Origin: Acetobacteraceae bacterium
Lineage (GTDB): Bacteria > Pseudomonadota > Alphaproteobacteria > Acetobacterales > Acetobacteraceae
Assembly (NCBI GenBank): GCA_027487675.1
Contig: JAIYDD010000215.1
Coordinates: 1-38,197, forward strand
DNA length: 38,197 nucleotides
Direction of reading: 5' to 3'
Shown: positions 4,116 to 32,989 of the stretch, piece after piece
How positions within the stretch are numbered: the first letter of the stretch is position 1
How the letters are laid out: each line of letters opens with the position of its first letter
Position numbers and translations under genes: made by a program
The notes under the pieces: model-generated
Database searches by the model: none
What the model was told of the DNA's origin: nothing
Seen by the model: only the letters and a program-made list of their open reading frames with translations

Positions 4116-4742
4116 TCAGCCCTCCAGCACCCCGTGCTGGCGCAGGAAGGCCAGCAGGCTGACCAGGGGCAGGCCGAGGATGGTGCTGTGCTCGCCCTCC
4201 ACCCGCGCCATCAGGTGCACGCCGAGCCCTTCCAGCCGATAGGCGCCGACGGTGGCACACAGCGCCTCGCCCTCCGCCGCCAGGTAGTCTTCCAGGAAGG
4301 CATCGGAGAAGTCGCGCATGGTCAGCCGCGCCGTGGAGGCGTGCTGCCACACCCGCGCGCCGCCGCGCCAGGCGACGATGCCGTTCACCAGCTCGTGACG
4401 CCGCCCGCGCAGCGCCCGCAGATGCGCCCGCGCGCCGTCCAGCCCGACCGGCTTGTCGAACCAGCGCAGCGTGCCGTCCGGCATCGGGCAGACCAGCAGC
4501 TGGTCGCAGCCGATCACCAGCGCGTCGGGGTCGCGGCGGGCGATGCGCTCGGCCTTGGCCTCGGCCAGGATGATCGCGGCCTCGGCGGGGGAGATGCCCT
4601 CGGCCTGGGCGGCTTCCTTGATCGCCGCCTCGTCCACCGCGGCCGGCCGCGCCTCGAAGGACAGGCCCGCCTGGTCGAGCAGCGCCCGGCGGGAGGCGGA
4701 GGCGGAGGCGAGGACCAGACGCGGCTCCGGCCGCTGGCGCAT
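4116..4742 (-). CDS. maf: Maf family nucleotide pyrophosphatase
   Basis: A 208-residue Maf/HAM1-type protein, predicted to hydrolyse non-canonical or modified nucleoside triphosphates to monophosphates in the cytosol. The N-terminal phosphate-binding motif LVLASASASRRALL is at residues 8-21. Downstream are the family's acidic residues (IGCDQLL) and the conserved FDKP. The C-terminal YRLEGLGVHLMARVEGEHS segment matches the Maf fold, and the length is typical. The ATG overlaps the TGA of ppsR (TGATG), so it is likely translationally coupled to it. The maf gene next to ppsR and across the gap from hemE is a conserved alphaproteobacterial arrangement. Confidence 0.9.
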   Translation of the reverse strand: MRQRPEPRLVLASASASRRALLDQAGLSFEARPAAVDEAAIKEAAQAEGISPAEAAIILAEAKAERIARRDPDALVIGCDQLLVCPMPDGTLRWFDKPVGLDGARAHLRALRGRRHELVNGIVAWRGGARVWQHASTARLTMRDFSDAFLEDYLAAEGEALCATVGAYRLEGLGVHLMARVEGEHSTILGLPLVSLLAFLRQHGVLEG

Positions 4743-5623
4743 CAGGTGGCGTCCCGCAGCGCGCCGGCGGCCGGATCCTCCGGCATCGGCACGGCGGGGC
4801 GGTGTTGGCGGCGGGCGTGCCAGGCCTCCATCAGCTGCAGGACGGTGGCCGCCGTCTCCTCGATCGAGCGGCGCGTCACGTCGATCACCGGCCACCCGCG
4901 GGAGGTGCAGAGCCGGCGCGCGGCCTGGATCTCGGTCTTCACCGATTCCGGGTCCACGTAGTCGTTGGTGTCCTGCCGCACCCCGCCGGCGCCGATCAGC
5001 CGCAGGCGGTGGCGGCGGATCTCGATCAGGGCCGAGGCCTCGATGTGCAGCCCGACCACCGGGCAGGGCGGGTTCGCCAGCTCCTCCGGCAGGGCGGCGC
5101 CGGGCACGATCGGCACGTTGGCCGCCTTGATGCCGCGGTTCGCCAGGTAGAAGCAGGTCGGCGTCTTGGAGGAGCGGGAGACGCCGACGAGACACACATC
5201 CGCCTCGTGGATGCCCGCCACCCCCTGGCCGTCGTCATGCGCCAGCACGTAGTGCATGGCGTCGATCCGTCGGAAATAGTCGGCGTCCATCACGTGCTGG
5301 GCGCCGCGCTTTTCCCGCGCGCGTTCGCCGATGCTGGTCTGCAGCAGCTCCACCACCGGATCGAGCGGCGACTGGCAGGCGAGGCCGAGGCGCGCGCAAT
5401 GCTCCTCGAGCGCGTGGCGCAGGCTGCGGTCGACCAGGGTGAACAGCACCGGGCCGGGCTCGTGCTCGATCCCTTCCAGCACCCGGTCGAGCTGCAGGCG
5501 GGAGCGGATCAGCGACCAGCGGTGCTGCACCACATGCGGCTCGTCGAAGCGCGAGAGGGTGGCGCGCGCGATGGAGTTCAGCGTCTCCCCGGTGCTGTCG
5601 GACACCAGGTGCAGGTTCGTCAT
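4742..5623 (-). CDS. ppsR: Pyruvate phosphate dikinase / PEP synthase regulatory protein (DUF299)
   Basis: A bifunctional kinase/pyrophosphorylase family protein, 293 residues. It uses ADP to inactivate and phosphate to reactivate pyruvate,phosphate dikinase or PEP synthase, controlling the pyruvate-PEP switch. The N-terminus [12 protein letters not shown] and the P-loop-like [10 protein letters not shown] segment are diagnostic. The C-terminal part [17 protein letters not shown] and [12 protein letters not shown] is also typical. An in-frame ATG at 5650 would add nine residues; neither start has a good Shine-Dalgarno, and 5623 fits the family N-terminus better. It is divergent from hemE across the putative replication origin, as in Caulobacter and Rickettsia. 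Confidence 0.9.
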
Positions 5624-6020
5624 GCGATGCGGCACGGCGGGGATCGGCATGCGGGGGCCCGTTCGCGACCAGAGGGTGTTGCGGCGAAAGCCGGGGATGG
5701 CGGGGAAAACCCCCCGGGGTCAAGCGCCGCATCGGGGTGAGCGGGGAGAACCGGGGGTTTGCCGACAACGCGGGACGAAAGCGGGGGGCATCGGCACGCA
5801 ACCCGGGACGAGGCCGGAATCGCGTTGCCGGTCAAACCCCTGGCGCCCGGCCTGCATGTGGGCCAGCCTGTGGATGGATGCGGGATGGAGCGCATCCCCC
5901 TTGTCCACAGGCATCAAACATAACCCCTCTCTTCAAGGATTCCTTTTTCTCTTTGAAGATGGGACGCCCAGGCCACGGAGCGGCGCGTTGACCCTCGAGA
6001 CCGACAAGACGACGACCCGG
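5624..6020. other. oriC: Putative chromosomal replication origin (oriC) between ppsR and hemE
   Basis: This 397-bp gap lies between the divergent ppsR and hemE genes, the position of Cori in Caulobacter and of the Rickettsia origin (established). Seen here: TTGTCCACA at 5901-5909 (plus strand) and CCATCCACA at 5869-5877 (minus strand), near matches to the DnaA box TTATCCACA in inverted orientation. They are the arms of a hairpin, CTGTGGA (5868-5874)/TCCACAG (5904-5910), with an inner GGATGCG (5876-5882)/CGCATCC (5891-5897) stem. Directly beside lies an unusually AT-rich, pyrimidine-rich tract at about 5911-5962 that could be the unwinding element. GANTC sites occur at 5817 and 5938. The origin assignment is inference from synteny plus these motifs. 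The gap must also hold the ppsR and hemE promoters. Confidence 0.68.
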
Positions 6021-7076
6021 ATGACGATGCCCTCGGAACCCACCGCCAAGCCGCTGCTGCGCGCCCTGGGGGGGGAGGCGGTGTGGCCCCCGCCGATGTG
6101 GCTGATGCGCCAGGCCGGACGCTACCTGCCGGAATACCGGGCGGTGCGCGAACAGGCGGGCGGCTTCATCGCGCTCTGCACCACGCCGGACCTCGCGGCC
6201 GAGGTCACCCTCCAGCCGATCCGCCGCTACGGCATGGACGGGGCGATCCTGTTCTCCGACATCCTGATGGTGCCCTGGGCGCTGGGGCAGCCCTTGCGCT
6301 TCGCCGAGGGCGAGGGCCCGGTGCTGGAGCCGATCCGCGACGCCGCCGGCGTGGCCGGGCTGCGGCTCGACCAGGTGCGGGAGCGCGCGGCGCCGATCTT
6401 CGAGACGGTGCGCCTGACCCGCGCGCTGCTGGCGGTGCAGCACCAGCGCACCGCGCTGATCGGCTTCGCCGGCAGCCCGTGGACGGTCGCGGCCTATATG
6501 GTGGAAGGCCATGGCTCGCGCGACTTCCACGTGACGCGGGAGCTGGCCTTCCAGGACCCGGCGCTGTTCGGGCGGCTGATCCGCACGCTGGTGGACGCCA
6601 CAACCGACTACCTGCTGGCCCAGATCGAGGCGCGGGCGGAGGCGGTGATGCTGTTCGACAGCTGGGCGGGGATGCTGCCCCCCAGCCAGTTCCGGCGCTG
6701 GGTGATCGAGCCCTCGGTCGCCATCGTGCGCAACGTGAAGCGGCTGCACCCCGGGATCCCGGTGATCGGCTTCCCGCGGCTGGCGGGGCCGCTGATCGGC
6801 GAATATGCGCAGCGCACGGGGGTGAACGCGGTGGCGATGGACACCGCGATGGACCCGCGCTTCGCCGCTTCCGCCGTGCCGGCGGGGGTGGCGCTGCAGG
6901 GCAACCTCGACCCGCTGTCGCTGATCGCCGGCGGCGCGGCGCTGGAGGCGGAGGCGCGGGCGGTGCTAGCCGCCATGCGCGGCCGCCCCTTCGTGTTCAA
7001 CCTGGGCCACGGCATCGAGAAGACGACCCCGCCGGAGCATGTCGCGCAGCTGGTGCGGATCGTCCGCGGCGGATGA
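6021..7076 (+). CDS. hemE: Uroporphyrinogen decarboxylase
   Basis: A 351-residue cytosolic enzyme of tetrapyrrole synthesis that decarboxylates the four acetate side chains of uroporphyrinogen III to give coproporphyrinogen III. The signature WLMRQAGRYLPEYR lies at residues 27-40. The conserved FSDIL (catalytic Asp), YMVEGHGS, LFDSWAG and FNLGHGI segments are all present, and the length is typical. Two in-frame ATGs lie at 6021 and 6027; the first was used, and no good Shine-Dalgarno is visible for either. The stop overlaps the start of the next gene (ATGA), so hemE heads a coupled three-gene operon. It also marks the right edge of the putative oriC. Confidence 0.95.
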   Translation: MTMPSEPTAKPLLRALGGEAVWPPPMWLMRQAGRYLPEYRAVREQAGGFIALCTTPDLAAEVTLQPIRRYGMDGAILFSDILMVPWALGQPLRFAEGEGPVLEPIRDAAGVAGLRLDQVRERAAPIFETVRLTRALLAVQHQRTALIGFAGSPWTVAAYMVEGHGSRDFHVTRELAFQDPALFGRLIRTLVDATTDYLLAQIEARAEAVMLFDSWAGMLPPSQFRRWVIEPSVAIVRNVKRLHPGIPVIGFPRLAGPLIGEYAQRTGVNAVAMDTAMDPRFAASAVPAGVALQGNLDPLSLIAGGAALEAEARAVLAAMRGRPFVFNLGHGIEKTTPPEHVAQLVRIVRGG

Positions 7077-16707: not shown

Positions 16708-16930
16708 CAGGCTGCGGAAATTCGCCTCGGGAAGCAAAGGGAAAGGTCGAGGGGCTCCGCCCCTCGAGCACCCCGGCAGGAACCTGATGTTCCTGCACCT
16801 CCCCTAAATTATTGATATATCCCGTTAAAATTGGGGAAGGTCCAGGAAACTCAGTTCCCTGGCGGGTGGGTGCGGGAGGGCAGCGCCCTCCCGCTGCATT
16901 CGGCCGCCGCCGAATTTCCGCAGCCTGCTA
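16705..16930. mobile_element. 226-bp MITE-like element with 20-bp perfect terminal inverted repeats
   Basis: TAGCAGGCTGCGGAAATTCG (16705-16724) and its exact reverse complement (16911-16930) bound a 226-bp segment with no coding capacity. Inside are hairpins CGAGGGGC/GCCCCTCG (about 16748-16766), GCAGGAAC/GTTCCTGC (about 16781-16797), an imperfect CCAGGAAAC/GTTCCCTGG stem (about 16842-16862), GGGAGGGC/GCCCTCCC (about 16875-16893) and an AT-rich core (about 16804-16833). The outermost TA at both ends fits a TA target duplication as made by Tc1/mariner-IS630-type transposases, but only inferentially. It could also be a REP-like intergenic repeat doubling as terminator for the aldo/keto reductase. 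Confidence 0.75.
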
Positions 16931-26365: not shown

Positions 26366-27235
26366 TCAGCCGTGGCCGGTCAGCAGCCGCACCAGGCCGT
26401 CGAGCTGGTCGAGGTCGCGATAGCGGATCACAACCTCGCCACCCCTGCCGCGCGGCTTCACCGACGTGGCAAGGCCCAGGCGCTCGGTGATTTCGCGCTC
26501 GAGGGCCGTGGTCTCCGTGTCGCGCGGCGGGGTGTCCGGCGCCTCGGCACGGGCACGGGGCTTGGACGAGGCGAGCGCCTCGGTCTGCCGGACGTTCAGC
26601 CCGCGGGCGACGACCTGGGCGGCGAGACGGCCCGGATCGGGGGCGCCGAGCAGCGCCCGCGCATGGCCTGCCGAGAGGATGCCCTGGCGCACCAGGTCAC
26701 GCACCTCGTTCGGCAGGGCGAGCAGGCGCATGGTGTTGGCGACGTGGCTGCGGCTTTTCCCCACCGCCTGGCCGAGGCCTTCCTGGGTGAGGCCGAATTC
26801 CTCGAGCAGGCGGCGGTAGCCATCCGCCTCCTCCATCGCGTTCAGGTCCTGGCGCTGGAGGTTCTCGACCAGGCCGGCGGCCATCGCCTCGCGGTCGCCG
26901 AGGTCGCGGATGACGACGGGAACCTCGTGCAGCTGGGCCAGCTGGGCGGCGCGCCAGCGGCGCTCCCCGCCGATGATCTGGTAGGCACCGGGCGTGTCGG
27001 GGCGTGGGCGGACCAGGATGGGTTGGAGGATGCCGTGTTCGCGGATGGAGGCGGCCAGTTCCTCGATGCTCGCGCGGTCCATGCCGCCGCGCGGCTGGAA
27101 GGGGCCGGGCTCGAGCGTCTCGATCGGAACGGTGCGGAGCGCGCCGGCTTCCGCGGTGGCGGGCCCATCGGGGATGAGCGCGGAGAGGCCGCGGCCGAGG
27201 CGGGGCGGGGCCGGCTTGCGTGTGCTGGTGCTCAT
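26366..27235 (-). CDS. parB: Chromosome-partitioning protein ParB
   Basis: A 289-residue DNA-binding CTPase that spreads from parS and links origins to ParA. Seen: N-terminal LGRGLSALIPD, the PFQPR region, the CTP-binding box GERRWRAAQLA, the ENLQRQDLNAMEEA box, the HTH LTQEGLGQAVGKSRSHVANTMRLL, and SAGHARALLG. The C-terminal dimerisation region ends RYRDLDQLDGLVRLL. ATG 27235 overlaps the parA TGA by four bases (ATGA). Two parS sites lie 1.4 and 4.7 kb upstream of the gene start. It is last in the leftward cluster. Confidence 0.95.
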   Translation of the reverse strand: MSTSTRKPAPPRLGRGLSALIPDGPATAEAGALRTVPIETLEPGPFQPRGGMDRASIEELAASIREHGILQPILVRPRPDTPGAYQIIGGERRWRAAQLAQLHEVPVVIRDLGDREAMAAGLVENLQRQDLNAMEEADGYRRLLEEFGLTQEGLGQAVGKSRSHVANTMRLLALPNEVRDLVRQGILSAGHARALLGAPDPGRLAAQVVARGLNVRQTEALASSKPRARAEAPDTPPRDTETTALEREITERLGLATSVKPRGRGGEVVIRYRDLDQLDGLVRLLTGHG

Positions 27236-28047
27236 GGGGCGCGGGTCGGCGCATTCTCCCGTTTGAGAAACTCGGCGGCCAGGCGGATATAGGCCTGCGC
27301 GCCGGGCGAGCGGACATCGTAGAGCAGGACGGGAAGGCCGTGGGAAGGCGCTTCGCTGATCCGCACGTTGCGGGGGATCACCGTCTCGAACACCTTGTCG
27401 CGGAAGAAGCCGCGGACATCGGTGGCGACGAGCTCGGAGAGGTTGTTCCGGCGATCGGCCATGGTCAGCACGATGCCGTGCAGGACGAGGCGCGGGTTGA
27501 GGGCGCGGCGAATGCGCTCGATGGTCCGGGTGAGCTGGCTGATGCCTTCGAGGGCGAAGAACTCCGTCTGCAGCGGCACCAGCACGCCGTCGGCTGCGAC
27601 CAGCGCGTTGACGGTGATCAGGCCGAGCGAGGGCGGGCAATCGAGGAAGATATGGTCGTAGCCGGCGAGCGGCTCGGCGGCGCCGGTCAGGGCGTCGGCG
27701 AGGCGATGTTCCCGCCTGTCCAGGGCGACGAGCTCGACCTCTGCGCCGGCCAGATCGGGATCGGCCGGCAGGATGGCCAGGTTCGGGATGCGGGTGGGGC
27801 GTATGAGCTGCTCGATCGGGCGGTTCTCGACCAGGAGGGCATAGGTTCCGGCGGCGCGGTCGGCGCGCGCGATGCCAAGGCCGGTCGACGCATTGCCCTG
27901 TGGGTCGAGGTCGATGAGCAGCACCCTGCGATCGGTGGCGAGCGCGGTGGCGAGGTTGATCGCCGTCGTCGTTTTCCCAACTCCGCCCTTCTGGTTGGCG
28001 AAGGCCAGGATGCGATGGGGCGCGCGCTCAGGCGGCAAGGCCGGCAC
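27232..28047 (-). CDS. parA: Chromosome-partitioning ATPase ParA
   Basis: A 271-residue deviant-Walker ATPase that segregates replicated origins. Seen: FANQKGGVGKTTTAINLATAL (Walker A with signature Lys), LLIDLDPQGNASTGLG (Walker A'), FLDCPPSLGLITVNALVAAD (Walker B) and VLVPLQTEFFALEGISQL. The start is GTG at 28047, which lies inside the end of rsmG (20-bp overlap); no ATG exists before the Walker A, so GTG is almost forced. The cytosolic partner is ParB immediately downstream. Confidence 0.95.
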   Translation of the reverse strand: MPALPPERAPHRILAFANQKGGVGKTTTAINLATALATDRRVLLIDLDPQGNASTGLGIARADRAAGTYALLVENRPIEQLIRPTRIPNLAILPADPDLAGAEVELVALDRREHRLADALTGAAEPLAGYDHIFLDCPPSLGLITVNALVAADGVLVPLQTEFFALEGISQLTRTIERIRRALNPRLVLHGIVLTMADRRNNLSELVATDVRGFFRDKVFETVIPRNVRISEAPSHGLPVLLYDVRSPGAQAYIRLAAEFLKRENAPTRAP

Positions 28048-28684
28048 GTCGGATCTCGCTGAGCCTGAAGATGGTGGATTGCGGGTCTGTGCGGCTGGCG
28101 TACCGCTCGACTGCCATTGTCCAGTCGGGGGCGGCCGCGGTCAACTCGGCTTCCGCGGTTCGACCCTTCGGGAAGATGGCGACGCCGCGGGGGGCGAGGA
28201 GCCGCGCGGCGTGGGGCAGGAGCTCGGCGAGAGGCGCCAGGGCCCGCGCGGTGAGTGCGGCGAGTGGCGGCAGGCGGGCGACGTCGATGCGCTCGGCATG
28301 CACGCGGACATGGCCGAGGCCAAGTCGCGCCGCGGCGTCCGTCAGGAAGGCGGCCTTGCGGCGATCCGACTCGACCACGTGCATCGGCCGGGCTTGGACG
28401 ATCGCAAGGACGAGGCCGGGCAGGCCGCCACCGGATCCGAGATCGGCGATCGGGTCTTCGCCTGGAGGCAGCAGCGGCGCGAGTTGCAGGCAATCCGCGA
28501 TGTGGCGTTCGCGCACCAGCTCGGGATCCGGGGTGCCGGCAAGCAGGTTGATGCGCGTATTCCAGCGCAGAAGCAGGTCGAGATAGGCGTCCAGGCGCTG
28601 TCGGGCCTCGGGGCCAGGCTTGCATTCAGGCGGCGGGTGGTGGGGCGGCATGATGTCCGCCGCGGAGTGTTTCACGTGAAACAC
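28028..28684 (-). CDS. rsmG: 16S rRNA (guanine(527)-N7)-methyltransferase RsmG
   Basis: A SAM-dependent enzyme modifying G527 of 16S rRNA. Seen: WNTRINLLAGTPDPELVRERHIADCLQL, the SAM-binding IADLGSGGGLPGLVLAI and VVESDRRKAAFL, followed by LTARALAPLAELL. The upstream GTG at 28684 lies within the parS site, so the protein would begin with the parS-encoded MFHVKHS; an ATG at 28651 gives a shorter form of 207 residues. The 3' end overlaps the parA start. It is placed between mnmG and parA as in other alphaproteobacteria. Confidence 0.93.
   Translation of the reverse strand: MFHVKHSAADIMPPHHPPPECKPGPEARQRLDAYLDLLLRWNTRINLLAGTPDPELVRERHIADCLQLAPLLPPGEDPIADLGSGGGLPGLVLAIVQARPMHVVESDRRKAAFLTDAAARLGLGHVRVHAERIDVARLPPLAALTARALAPLAELLPHAARLLAPRGVAIFPKGRTAEAELTAAAPDWTMAVERYASRTDPQSTIFRLSEIRRAGLAA
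28668..28683. promoter_or_regulatory. parS: parS centromere site 1
   Basis: TGTTTCACGTGAAACA, a perfect 16-bp match to the widely conserved parS consensus and a perfect palindrome (extends to AGTGTTTCACGTGAAACACT). It lies at the mnmG/rsmG junction and overlaps the GTG start option of rsmG. The ParB-binding assignment rests on the near-universal consensus. Confidence 0.95.
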
Positions 28685-30553
28685 TCAGCCTTGCGCCGCA
28701 CGTCGCAGATGCACCGCCAGCGCCGCGATGGCGGCCGGCGTGATGCCCGGCAGGCGGCCGGCGCTGCCGAGGCTGCCAGGGCGCGCGCGCGCGAGCCGCT
28801 GCTGCATCTCCGCGGACAGTCCGGGGATCGCGGCGAAGTCGAGGTCGGAGGGGATCGCCAGCGCTTCTTCGCGCTCCAGCATGCGGCGTTCGGCATCCTG
28901 CCGCCGGAGATACGGCGCGTAGAGGGCTTCGGCTTCCAGCTGCGCGGCCACACCGGCCGGTAGATCGGCGAGCCATGGAAAGGCCGAAGCGGCCAGGGCC
29001 GGCGTGACATCCGGGAGAGCCAGGACATCGAGCGCCGAACGGCGGCGCCCGTCCTGGCGGATCGGAAGGCCCGCCGCGATGAGATCGCCGGCGGTCGCGG
29101 TGGAGGTGGCGGCGCGGGCCAGTGCATCGCGTACCGCCGCCGCAAAGGCCGCGTGTCGCCGGGCCCGCTCGGGGCCGATGCACCCCCAGGCCGCGCCGCG
29201 ATCCGTCAGGCGCAAGCCGGCATTGTCGGCCCGAAGCGTCAGCCGATGCTCGGCGCGCGCGGTCAGCATCCGGTAGGGTTCGGTGACGCCGTGCAGCACC
29301 AGATCGTCGACCAACACGCCCAGGTAGGCATCGCCGCGGTTCAGGACCCGGTCGGGCTTGCCTCCACCGGCGCGGGCGGCCGCGTTCAGCCCTGCCATCA
29401 GCCCCTGGGCGGCGGCTTCCTCATAGCCGGTGGTGCCATTGATCTGCCCGGCCAGGAACAGCCCCGGGACCGCACGCAGTTCGAGGGTGGGATGAAGTGC
29501 CCGCGGATCGACATGGTCGTATTCGATCGCGTAGCCCGGCCGCAGGATTCGCGCGCGCTCCAAGCCCGGGATGCTCGCGATCACCGCCGCCTGGATGTCG
29601 GGTGGAAGGCTGGTCGAAATGCCGTTCGGGTAGATGGTCGGGTCGTTCAGCCCCTCGGGCTCCAGGAAGATCTGGTGTCGCTCACGCTCGGCGAAGCGGA
29701 CGACCTTGTCCTCGATCGAGGGGCAGTAGCGAGGCCCGACGCCCTGTATGCGCCCGCCATAGATCGCCGTCCTGTGCAGGTTCGCGCGGATCAACGCGTG
29801 GGTGGTCGGCGTGGTCCAGGTGATGCGGCATTCGACCTGCGGGTTGGTGATCCGGTCCGTCAGCCAGGACAGCGGCTCCGGCGGATCGTCCCCGGGCTGC
29901 GCTTCCAGGGAAACCCAGTCGATGCTGCGTCCGTCGAGGCGCGGCGGGGTGCCGGTCTTCAACCGCGCCATCGGCAGGTTCAGCCGCTCAAGCGCGACCG
30001 CCAGCCCGATGGAGGGGACATCCCCGCGCCGTCCGGCCGGGATTCGCTCTTCCCCGATATGGATTTCGCCGCGGAGGAAGGTGCCGGTCGTGATGATGGC
30101 AGCGCCGCATCGGATCTGTGCGCCGGCATCCGTGACGATTGCCGCCAGCGCACCGGAGGCATCGAGGACAAGATCCTCCACCGCTGCCGAGCGGATCGAC
30201 AGATTGGGTGTCCCGGCAAGCAGTTCCTGCATCGCACGACGGTAGAGCGCCCGGTCGGCCTGGGCTCGCGGTCCGCGGACGGCGGGACCCTTGCTGCGGT
30301 TCAATTGCTTGACATGGATCGCCGCGGCATCGGCCGCGCGCGCCATCACCCCGTCCAGCGCATCGATCTCCCGCACCAGGTGGCCCTTCCCGATGCCCCC
30401 GATCGCGGGGTTGCAGGACATCTCGCCGATCGTGTCGATCCGGTGGGTCAGCAGCAGCGTGCGCGCACCACAGCGCGCCGCGGCGGCCGCGGCTTCGCAG
30501 CCCGCATGCCCGCCGCCCACCACGACGACGTCGTACTGCGCTGCTCCGCTCAT
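28685..30553 (-). CDS. mnmG: tRNA uridine-5-carboxymethylaminomethyl modification enzyme MnmG (GidA)
   Basis: A 622-residue FAD enzyme that works with MnmE to place cmnm5/nm5 groups on U34 of certain tRNAs. Seen: [22 protein letters not shown] (FAD), [42 protein letters not shown], and the C-terminal region [29 protein letters not shown] 30553 has AAGG upstream. It lies 18 bp after mnmE and ends next to parS site 1, so it is part of the leftward operon mnmE-mnmG-rsmG-parA-parB. Confidence 0.95.
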
Positions 30554-30571
30554 GCCGGCCTTATAGTGCCC

Positions 30572-31894
30572 CTACTTGCCGATGCAGAAGTCGCGGAAGA
30601 TGGAATCAAGCACGTCATCCACCTCGACACGACCTGTGAGGCGCCCGAGCGCTCTCAGCGCGCTGCGGTAGCCCTCGGCCGCCAGTTCCGGCAGCGGCGC
30701 ATGCAGGGCCTCAGTGAGCCGGGTGGCGGCTTCCTCGAGCGCCGCCCGGTGGCGCAGCCGCGTCCATCCAGGCGCGTCGCCGGATCCGGCACGGCTTGCG
30801 GCCTCGCGGGCCAGGAGCGCTCGCAGCTCAGCCACGCCCTCTCCCGTCGTGGCGCTGGTCGCGACAACGACTGCGGGAACGGCGAAGCCGCACGTGGCCG
30901 CGCGCAGGTCCGACTTGCTGCCGATGGCAATGGCGTCGGGGCGCCGCTCCAGGATGGCCAAGGTGTCTGCATCCGGTGGGGAGTCGCTGGCAAAAACGGC
31001 CACCACGATGTCGGACTCCTCTGCCCGACGGCGACTGCGCCGGACGCCCTCCTGTTCGATCTCGTCATCCGAGGCGCGCAGACCTGCCGTGTCGGCGAGC
31101 GTTGCCGGCACGCCCTGCAGGTCGACACGGCAGTCGACCACATCCCGCGTGGTGCCAGGGCGCGCCGATACAATGGCCGCATCCTTCCCCGCGATCGCAT
31201 TCAGCAGCGACGATTTTCCGGCATTCGGAGCGCCGACAAGCGCGATCGTCACTCCTTCCCGCAGCCGGACGCCGCGGCCGCCATCCGCCAGATGCGCCGC
31301 GATCTCCGCGATCAGGGTGCCGGCTTGGACACGCGCCTGGTCCGTCAGGTCGGATGGGATGTCGTCGAACTCGAATTCGATGGCGGCTTCCTGGTGCGCC
31401 AGGACGCGCGTCGCCCGCGCCGTCCATCCGTCGTACAGGCGAGACAGCGCGCCATCCGCTTGTCGCAGCGCCTGTCGCCGCTGCAACTCGGTCTCGGCGG
31501 CGATCAGGTCAGCGATTCCCTCGGCCTGAACGAGATCCAGCCGGCCATGCAGCACCGCGCGCCGCGTGAACTCTCCCGGCTCCGCCGCCCTGCAGCCAAG
31601 GGCGACGAGAGCGGCCAGGACAGCCGCCAGCACGGCGCCACTGCCATGCAGATGCAGTTCCGCTGCATCCTCCCCGGTGTAGCTCGCAGGTCCCGGGAAC
31701 CAGATCACCAGCGCGTCGTCCAGCACCTCGCCACCGTCAGGCGAGCGCAGCTTCCGCCGGCTCGCGACGCGCGGAGCCGGACACTGCCCGGCCAGCAGCG
31801 CCAGCACGTCCGCGGTGCGCGGGCCCGAAAGCCGCACCACCGCAATCGCTGCCTGCCCGGCTCCTGACGCCCGCGCGAAAATGGTGTCGGACAT
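30572..31894 (-). CDS. mnmE: tRNA modification GTPase MnmE (TrmE)
   Basis: A 440-residue GTPase. N-terminal tetrahydrofolate-binding domain from MSDTIFARASGAGQAAIAVVRLSG; central helical domain; inserted G domain with GAPNAGKSSLLNAI (P-loop) and DTAGLR (G3); C-terminal FCIGK with the essential Cys. It acts as a dimer with MnmG. ATG 31894 gives the family-like MSDTIFA start; the extension to 31975 crosses the parS site. It is the first of the tRNA/segregation genes in the leftward cluster. Confidence 0.95.
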   Translation of the reverse strand: MSDTIFARASGAGQAAIAVVRLSGPRTADVLALLAGQCPAPRVASRRKLRSPDGGEVLDDALVIWFPGPASYTGEDAAELHLHGSGAVLAAVLAALVALGCRAAEPGEFTRRAVLHGRLDLVQAEGIADLIAAETELQRRQALRQADGALSRLYDGWTARATRVLAHQEAAIEFEFDDIPSDLTDQARVQAGTLIAEIAAHLADGGRGVRLREGVTIALVGAPNAGKSSLLNAIAGKDAAIVSARPGTTRDVVDCRVDLQGVPATLADTAGLRASDDEIEQEGVRRSRRRAEESDIVVAVFASDSPPDADTLAILERRPDAIAIGSKSDLRAATCGFAVPAVVVATSATTGEGVAELRALLAREAASRAGSGDAPGWTRLRHRAALEEAATRLTEALHAPLPELAAEGYRSALRALGRLTGRVEVDDVLDSIFRDFCIGK

Positions 31895-31921
31895 CCCTGT
31901 CACCGGCAGCCGAACGGCCGG

Positions 31922-31937
31922 TGTTTCACGTGAAACA
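31922..31937. promoter_or_regulatory. parS: parS centromere site 2
   Basis: A second perfect TGTTTCACGTGAAACA lies in the 58-bp gap between mnmE and the ferredoxin gene. The two sites are 3.25 kb apart, both upstream of parAB. Confidence 0.95.
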
Positions 31938-31952
31938 CTGGCCGCGCCGCCC

Positions 31953-32336
31953 TCATTCCTTGGCCGCGGGAACATCCCGGTCGGTCAGCATCAGCCGGTG
32001 CGCCCGGCCGCCGGCGACCAGGTGGGCTGCCAGGATCTCATCGACGTCCGCGCGGCTCTGCGGGCTGTACCAGACGCCCTCGGGATAGATCACGAGCGTC
32101 GGCCCGAACTCGCATCGGTCGAGGCACCCGGCCAAGTTCACCCGAACCCCGGACAGCCCGAGTTCCTTGGCACGGACCTTCATGTAGTCCCGTAGCTCCT
32201 CGCTGCCCCGGGCGGCGCAGGAGCCACGGCGGTGTCCGTCCGGCCGGCGGTTGCAGCACACGAAAACATGCGCCTGGAAGTGAAGCGGCGGATCCGTGCG
32301 TCCGTCGACAGGCGGAAAAGCGGCGGCGTCGGTCAC
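31953..32336 (-). CDS. Thioredoxin-like [2Fe-2S] ferredoxin family protein
   Basis: A 127-residue protein of the Shethna-like thioredoxin-fold [2Fe-2S] group. Cluster ligands appear as FVCCNRRPDGHRRGSCAARG (first pair) and LAGCLDRCEFGPTLVIYPEG (second pair). Start: GTG 32336 with GGAG six bases upstream; the frame extends to 32390 with another GTG. It is a likely electron carrier or sensor, partner unknown. It lies 58 bp upstream of mnmE on the same strand and diverges from ogt, possibly the first gene of the leftward transcription unit. Confidence 0.85.
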   Translation of the reverse strand: MTDAAAFPPVDGRTDPPLHFQAHVFVCCNRRPDGHRRGSCAARGSEELRDYMKVRAKELGLSGVRVNLAGCLDRCEFGPTLVIYPEGVWYSPQSRADVDEILAAHLVAGGRAHRLMLTDRDVPAAKE

Positions 32337-32485
32337 GGCGTGCTCCGATGGCAGAAGGCGCTTGGGAAAGGCCGGATGTAGCGAGCGCACTCAGGCGCCG
32401 CCAGGGCGACCGCTGCACCGGAAGCGCACCCCCGCTTGACGGCAGCCGCCCGATTGTGGCGCATGACCCTCCCCGGGTGAGAGCC

Positions 32486-32989
32486 ATGCCCCAGCTGTCC
32501 TGCCTCAGCCCCCTCGGCGACATCACCATCTCGGAGGAGGGCGGCGCCATCGTCGCCCTCGACTGGGGCCGTGGCCGCGACCAGCACCGCAACGCCTTGC
32601 TGGCGCAGGCCGTGACGCAACTCCAGGACTATCTCGACGGCCAGCGAACGGCCTTCGACCTGCCGCTCGCCCCTTCCGGCACGGCCTTCCAGCGACGCGT
32701 CTGGGCAGCGCTGGTGGCGATCCCGCATGGCGAGACGCGCGGCTATGGTGACCTCGCGCGCCTGCTCGGCAGTTCCGCCCGCGCCGTCGGACAGGCCAGC
32801 GGCGCCAATCCCATCCCGATCTTCATCCCGTGCCACCGCGTCCTTGGTGCCAACGGAGCGTTGGGGGGCTATTCGGCAGGCGACGGGCCTGTCACGAAGC
32901 GCCTTCTTCTGGATCTTGAACGCCGGGCGAGCGCGGGCCGCGAACCCGGGATGAGACAGCCCCCCCTCCAAGGGACCCTCCTCCCATGA
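32486..32989 (+). CDS. ogt: Methylated-DNA-protein-cysteine methyltransferase (Ogt/MGMT)
   Basis: A 167-residue suicide repair protein that removes alkyl groups from O6-guanine. The acceptor site IPCHRVLGANGALGGYSAG with its Cys and the DNA-binding wing (RAVGQASGANPIPIFIPCHR region) are complete. The N-terminal part, PQLSCLSPLGDITISEEGG, is the RNase-H-like domain. ATG 32486 follows GTGAGAGCC; the longer frame from 32348 is unlikely. The stop overlaps the next start (ATGA). Confidence 0.92.
   Translation: MPQLSCLSPLGDITISEEGGAIVALDWGRGRDQHRNALLAQAVTQLQDYLDGQRTAFDLPLAPSGTAFQRRVWAALVAIPHGETRGYGDLARLLGSSARAVGQASGANPIPIFIPCHRVLGANGALGGYSAGDGPVTKRLLLDLERRASAGREPGMRQPPLQGTLLP

Follow-up and report, generated by a model that had tools for sequence, protein, structure and literature searches.

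A candidate chromosomal replication origin between ppsR and hemE in Roseomonas-type Acetobacteraceae

Where does replication of the chromosome begin in Roseomonas-type Acetobacteraceae? The question is raised by the gap between two divergent genes, ppsR and hemE, in the window analyzed here, a stretch of 38,197 nucleotides from a draft genome (G000) of 5.18 Mb in 288 contigs. We take COG1806 to be the PpsR family. The origins of Caulobacter and Rickettsia lie between hemE and COG1806 (PMC1914354), and in Hyphomonas a replication peak occurs near hemE, with parAB about 7 kb away (PMC6650430; these and the other papers cited are drawn on through parts of their text). An earlier note on this DNA had proposed a chromosomal oriC between ppsR and hemE. 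That proposal gains support from the conserved gene order, the enrichment of DnaA-type box cores in relatives, the single occurrence of a convergent box pair in the genome itself, and two closed relatives whose GC skew reaches its minimum at the start of hemE. Sequence comparison indicates that the gap is very probably the DnaA-dependent chromosomal oriC of a Falsiroseomonas-like member of the Acetobacteraceae.

Gene order and DnaA-type boxes

The features of the locus are collected in Table 1. The ppsR start codon may be at 5650, 5635 or 5623, so the left edge of 5624 drawn in the earlier note is possible, and the ATG of hemE is at 6021 or 6027. The hemE loci used for comparison were the best 80 of 582 matches, mostly from Roseomonas-type Acetobacteraceae. 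In 73 of these 80 named relatives ppsR is divergent from hemE and the gap is kept; in the other seven loci (L068, L069, L071, L078, L080, L082 and L083) ppsR was not found. In four family genomes (G027, G036, G039 and G043) maf directly adjoins hemE, and their searched stretches gave no ppsR match. The 73 relatives and the window make up a set of 74 gaps, reduced to 63 non-redundant ones by dropping those with a similarity ratio of at least 0.85. A tRNA scan of the window was empty.

Table 1. Coordinates of the candidate origin, its elements and its surroundings in the window
Feature	Position	Strand	Basis or comment
ppsR (pyruvate phosphate dikinase / PEP synthase regulator family)	4742..5650	-	left flank; NCBIfam PRK05339, 304 bits
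Candidate chromosomal oriC, ppsR-hemE intergenic gap	~5624..6020		synteny in relatives and DnaA-type core enrichment
Left pair of weak DnaA-type boxes CGGGGATGG, CGGGGAAAA, 9 bp apart	5692..5709	-	such pairs in 42 of 63 gaps
Further weak DnaA-type site CGGGGAGAA	5742..5750	-	looser core; aligned GGGGA block; not counted by stricter core
GANTC site	5817..5821		motif scan
DnaA box TGTGGATGG (read on plus strand), 2 mismatches	5869..5877	-	consensus scan; CTGTGGA in 64 of 74 gaps
Weak DnaA-type box GCATCCCCC, directly ahead of the 5901 box	5892..5900	+	looser core; 9-bp plus-strand pairs in 38 of 63 gaps
Best DnaA box TTGTCCACA, 1 mismatch	5901..5909	+	consensus TTATCCACA
AT-rich tract, putative duplex unwinding element	5911..5962		60% AT, 62% pyrimidine
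GANTC site inside putative unwinding element	5938..5942		motif scan
hemE (uroporphyrinogen decarboxylase)	6027..7076	+	right flank; TIGR01464, 371 bits
parB, parA, rsmG, mnmG, mnmE cluster	26366..31975 (~26.4-32.0 kb)	-	transcribed toward candidate origin
parS, perfect palindrome	28668..28683		exact-site scan
parS, perfect palindrome	31922..31937		exact-site scan

Judged from the window alone, the DnaA boxes are few, weak and only mildly more frequent than chance. Among 300 simulated gaps, 8 held two or more boxes with at most two mismatches, as did 23 of 757 stretches of gap length taken from the window, and the whole 38 kb has just two sites within one mismatch of TTATCCACA, at 5901 and 10547. 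Both inverted near-consensus boxes pointed out earlier are present, with two mismatches (5869, minus strand) and one (5901, plus strand). Strict cores in 5651-6026 fall at 5692, 5701 and 5869 on the minus strand and at 5903 on the plus strand, and one more lies outside that range at 5638; looser cores (G[GT]GGA or TCC[AC]C) fall at 5693, 5702, 5743 and 5870 (minus) and in the boxes at 5892 and 5901. The earlier note pictured a compact origin with few strong boxes; by one motif or another the gap has four to six DnaA-type sites, most of them weak. The tandem box at 5892-5900, the minus cores at 5693, 5702 and 5743 and the GANTC sites at 5817 and 5938 go beyond the earlier note.

Conserved DnaA-like boxes in relatives, proposed in that note as a check, are found. 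The 63 gaps contain 255 copies of the minus core [CT]G[GT]GGA[TAC], a mean of 4.05 per gap, where the reversed motif has 0.19 and the background 0.18 per 300 bp; the plus core [GAT]TCC[AC]C[AG] has 98 copies (1.56 per gap; reversed 0.29, background 0.19). In both orientations the commonest spacing of cores is 9 bp. The word TCCACAGG stands on the plus strand of 51 of the 74 gaps, compared with 0.003 per 300 bp on both strands outside the gaps, and with at most one mismatch in 67 of the 74. Two alignments (one of 13 sequences, one of a chosen subset of 31) and an anchored list covering all 74 gaps share a conserved right end: a weak box, a strong box, G/C, a C/A-rich stretch and the AT-rich tract. 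Several DnaA boxes, conserved and above chance, are a property of the gap across relatives.

The convergent pair CTGTGGA-N20-40-CCACAGGC was sought in 35 genomes, of which 16 match and 19 have none. It lies just upstream of hemE in 12 genomes (in opposite orientation in G017); six sites lie elsewhere, and the reversed control gave seven. The sole site in the genome under study is 5866-5912, within the gap. The 19-mer of the left pair has one exact place in this genome and one more with two mismatches. The right tandem pair alone (TCCMC-N4-TCCACAGG, one mismatch) was rejected as a marker: among the matches listed, it fell below the reversed control in 34 of the 35 genomes.

The AT-rich tract and strand opening

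The AT- and pyrimidine-rich tract beside the boxes, described earlier as exceptional in the window, is real: the 52-mer starting at 5909 has the second-lowest GC among non-overlapping 52-mers of the window, the lowest starting at 16805. Mean AT is 0.386 in the gaps and 0.307 in the loci, and an AT-rich element adjoins the boxes, as in an origin. The most AT-rich 52-mer of the window, 16805-16856 with a GC of 0.35, lies away from the candidate origin.

After the last box, relatives tend to have an A at every third base (z 5.4 at lag 3 and 3.1 at lag 6, for 60 segments with shuffling inside each segment). The published three-trio rule, coded here as at least three trios with the central T on this strand and a start 0-16 bp after the box, is satisfied in 12 of the 63 family gaps and not in that of the window. 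Of 20 outgroups from the class, 11 have a (C[TAC]A)x3 run upstream of hemE, compared with 0.9 on average after shuffling and 4 for the reversed control. Among the 63 family gaps 7 have such a run, which does not exceed the 6 of the reversed control. DnaA-trios are plausible for the class. For the window's family the evidence is suggestive, with a periodicity beside a rule that most gaps do not satisfy. Read by eye, several of the regions upstream of hemE in these 20 other alphaproteobacteria (L261-L280) have box-like pairs, CTA/CAA-type triplets and an AT tract. The trio pattern is clearer in several of them than in the window's family, and is absent from, for example, L264, L276, L278 and L279.

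These elements suggest how the origin may work. DnaA would first hold the better boxes at 5901 and 5869 and would then spread onto the weak ones, including the left pair at 5692-5709 and the box at 5892. The right tandem pair is directed at the AT-rich tract, where the strands would open and helicase would be loaded, and forks would depart in both directions. We infer all three parts of this scheme: DnaA binding at the boxes, opening in the AT tract, and activity in the species itself.

GC skew, parS and alternative readings

GC skew, a check proposed in the earlier note, backs an origin at hemE within the family and not within the window's own genus. In the closed genome G027 the cumulative minimum over 571-651 kb is at 611590, 0.4 kb inside hemE (from 611160). 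Ten stretches there have negative skew to one side of hemE and positive skew to the other, with the caveat that it stays near zero for about 17 kb past hemE and only then becomes clearly positive. The closed genome G043 has a sharp minimum at 1025535, less than 0.1 kb from where hemE starts (1025610, minus strand). Both genomes carry at hemE a box array similar to that of the window's family. Both also have maf, not ppsR, beside hemE, so the tie between skew and the ppsR-hemE gap runs via hemE, and for this reason we hold the origin reading a shade less firmly than we otherwise would.

All five sampled genomes with the ppsR-hemE arrangement (G009, G099, G100, G070 and G085) lack a skew minimum at hemE; among them is G009, of the same genus as the window, with a 1.78-Mb contig. 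Since three high-GC Roseomonas-type genomes (G009, G099 and G100) have no usable skew at the origin, the box array is a useful handle. Among the genomes with maf beside hemE, G036 shows only a small local change of skew, and in G039 the minimum lies at 1844035, some 1.5 kb outside mnmE and 30 kb from hemE. In the 225 kb of G039 examined there is no box with at most one mismatch between 1810920 and 1849684, and no cluster at the skew minimum. A rearrangement adjoining the origin is possible in this genome. At about 1842-1845 kb of its contig C1 (L160-L161), the skew switches beside the parAB cluster, on its mnmE side. Cumulative skew in the window itself climbs between about 4 and 30 kb and then falls.

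The perfect parS sites that the earlier note placed 23-26 kb from the gap were confirmed at 28668 and 31922. They are the only exact sites in the genome; sites with one or two mismatches lie on four other contigs. In the window and in G009 the par-mnm cluster lies beyond hemE as seen from the gap; in G006 it lies beyond ppsR. In all three, parB is its end nearer the gap. Inversions around an origin in the gap would leave such a side-swapped cluster with parB nearer, an expectation set against three genomes only. In G039 mnmE is nearer hemE than parB is, and the cluster runs away from hemE. In ten relatives parS sites occur to either side of hemE at distances of roughly 12 to 100 kb, with a few one-mismatch sites farther away. 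An ogt-like gene (32348-32989, plus strand) lies near mnmE (minus strand) with a possible 145-aa reading frame between them (region 30572-32989), and an ogt-like gene adjoins mnmE in G039 too. parAB is near the origin in almost all alphaproteobacterial genomes surveyed, with exceptions in Rhodospirillales, according to the part of that survey drawn on (PMC8116508).

An origin next to dnaA was considered and rejected, as dnaA is far from hemE or on another contig in eleven genomes: it is on a different contig in G000, G007 and G009, and in the other eight its distance from hemE ranges from about 77 kb (G003) to 1.7 Mb (G100). The oriC of Acetobacter pasteurianus 386B was placed near dnaA by Ori-Finder (PMC3751514, seen in part).

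The true origin could instead lie at the mnmE-mnmG-rsmG-parA-parB cluster (about 26-32 kb, with parS), leaving the hemE gap as some other DnaA-binding element. The G039 minimum just outside mnmE fits this placement, and near 30 kb the cumulative skew of the window also changes direction, but the opposite way. Against it, the window lacks any box with at most two mismatches between 30615 and 33817, the stretch of G039 free of boxes within one mismatch spans its skew minimum, the position of parS varies among the ten relatives while the box array stays with hemE, and the minima of G027 and G043 are at hemE; we consider an origin on the mnmE side improbable.

The divergence of hemE and ppsR would also suit a shared control region, in which DnaA, and perhaps CcrM, acts on transcription of these genes and not on replication, and alphaproteobacteria are known to have an excess of GANTC between their genes (PMC3973325, in part). 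Against such a region stand the two closed relatives with their skew minimum at hemE and the AT tract adjoining the tandem box, and the same neighborhood is an origin in Caulobacter and Rickettsia (PMC1914354) and a replication peak in Hyphomonas (PMC6650430), so we judge pure transcription control very unlikely. The working part could, finally, be the hairpin at about 5866-5912, as an RNA structure, a terminator or an extruded cruciform. The nested hairpin with box arms noticed earlier does fold as single-stranded DNA (z -3.5; 1 of 200 shuffles as good), but its 7-bp inner stem is kept in just 2 of 13 genus gaps, no Rfam family reached the gathering score in the window, and it is the two DnaA boxes that make up the outer arms. 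A functional hairpin seems extremely unlikely to us, and we retain the reading of the gap as a DnaA-dependent origin.

GANTC sites and comparison with known origins

The gaps are rich in GANTC, the CcrM-type site. The 63 gaps hold 259 such sites, or 4.11 per gap. Their density is 15.6 times that of the flanking sequence, most of it coding, and 3.8 times that after shuffling of the gaps, which gives 68 sites on average and at most 93. By the same comparison with flanking density, seven control words of the same form gave 0.7 to 2.9 times, GATC 0.6 and CTAG 3.4. Among 53 loci of at least 12 kb, 38 have their densest 300-bp stretch for GANTC (ties counted) in the gap, when up to 100 bp ahead of it are included, and only 4 of the 63 gaps are free of the site. 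Gaps of the window's genus have 2 to 6. Enrichment is weak in 20 class outgroups (20 of 27), with 56 sites against a shuffled mean of 32.9 and a maximum of 48. The RAMA domain, which we take to be linked to CcrM, was found in 24 of 25 genomes searched, including that of the window and not G014, and among 14 control genomes in Caulobacter only.

The site also has a preferred place. Of 60 anchored gaps, 48 have a GANTC no more than 60 bp past the last, right box; shuffling gives 10.8 such gaps on average and 21 at most, and the best control word reaches 21. In 41 of the 60 the site is at an offset of 26-29 after the box, as counted from the rows. By eye, the AT tracts of G036 and G039 have no GANTC. 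Because GANTC is over-represented between genes in alphaproteobacteria (PMC3973325, in part), some of the enrichment in the gaps is expected; the fixed place is harder to account for in this way. In the literature covered, which leaves out most subscription journals and was seen in part, we found no mention of a GANTC site conserved within the unwinding element of such origins. With a fixed GANTC in the putative unwinding element of a GANTC-rich origin, it is tempting to speculate that CcrM controls origin opening in this family, an idea that we find doubtful enough to put forward only tentatively. If true, strand opening or re-initiation would depend on full or hemi-methylation at GANTC, and this would parallel, in alphaproteobacteria, the Dam/SeqA control of E. 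coli oriC, through another enzyme and another site. In both cases a methyltransferase site stands in the AT-rich region of opening, which is putative here: GANTC in these gaps and the Dam site GATC in E. coli. The 13-mers of E. coli oriC contain GATC.

None of the 63 gaps has TTAA-N6-8-TTAA, which we take to be a form of the CtrA-type pair, whereas Caulobacter Cori has five CtrA sites. By this test the gap is not a CtrA-controlled Cori, and GANTC in the putative unwinding element is a lead on the timing of origins that have no CtrA-type pairs. The gap also shares features with Cori. Both have few, weak DnaA sites (the G- and W-boxes of Cori; PMC4468827), both lie between hemE and COG1806, as does the Rickettsia origin (PMC1914354), and parS is nearby, although 23-26 kb away here and within 8 kb in Caulobacter (PMC4468827).

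The basal unwinding system consists of DnaA boxes, a spacer and DnaA-trios. Tandem boxes directed at the unwinding tract are found here too, the boxes at 5892-5900 and 5901-5909 being 9 bp apart and next to the AT tract, with a few G/C bases following them; the three-trio rule (PMC8287927, in part) is the feature that the window and most family gaps do not share. The predicted oriC of Sphingopyxis lies in the same neighborhood near hemE, with conserved DnaA boxes and a putative unwinding element (PMC4741004). Its gene order is different, and we liken the two by layout, not by box sequence. The candidate locus is a further member of the alphaproteobacterial hemE-type origins, as far as these are described in the parts of the papers drawn on (PMC1914354, PMC6650430, PMC4741004), and with it the origin of Roseomonas-type Acetobacteraceae has very probably been placed.
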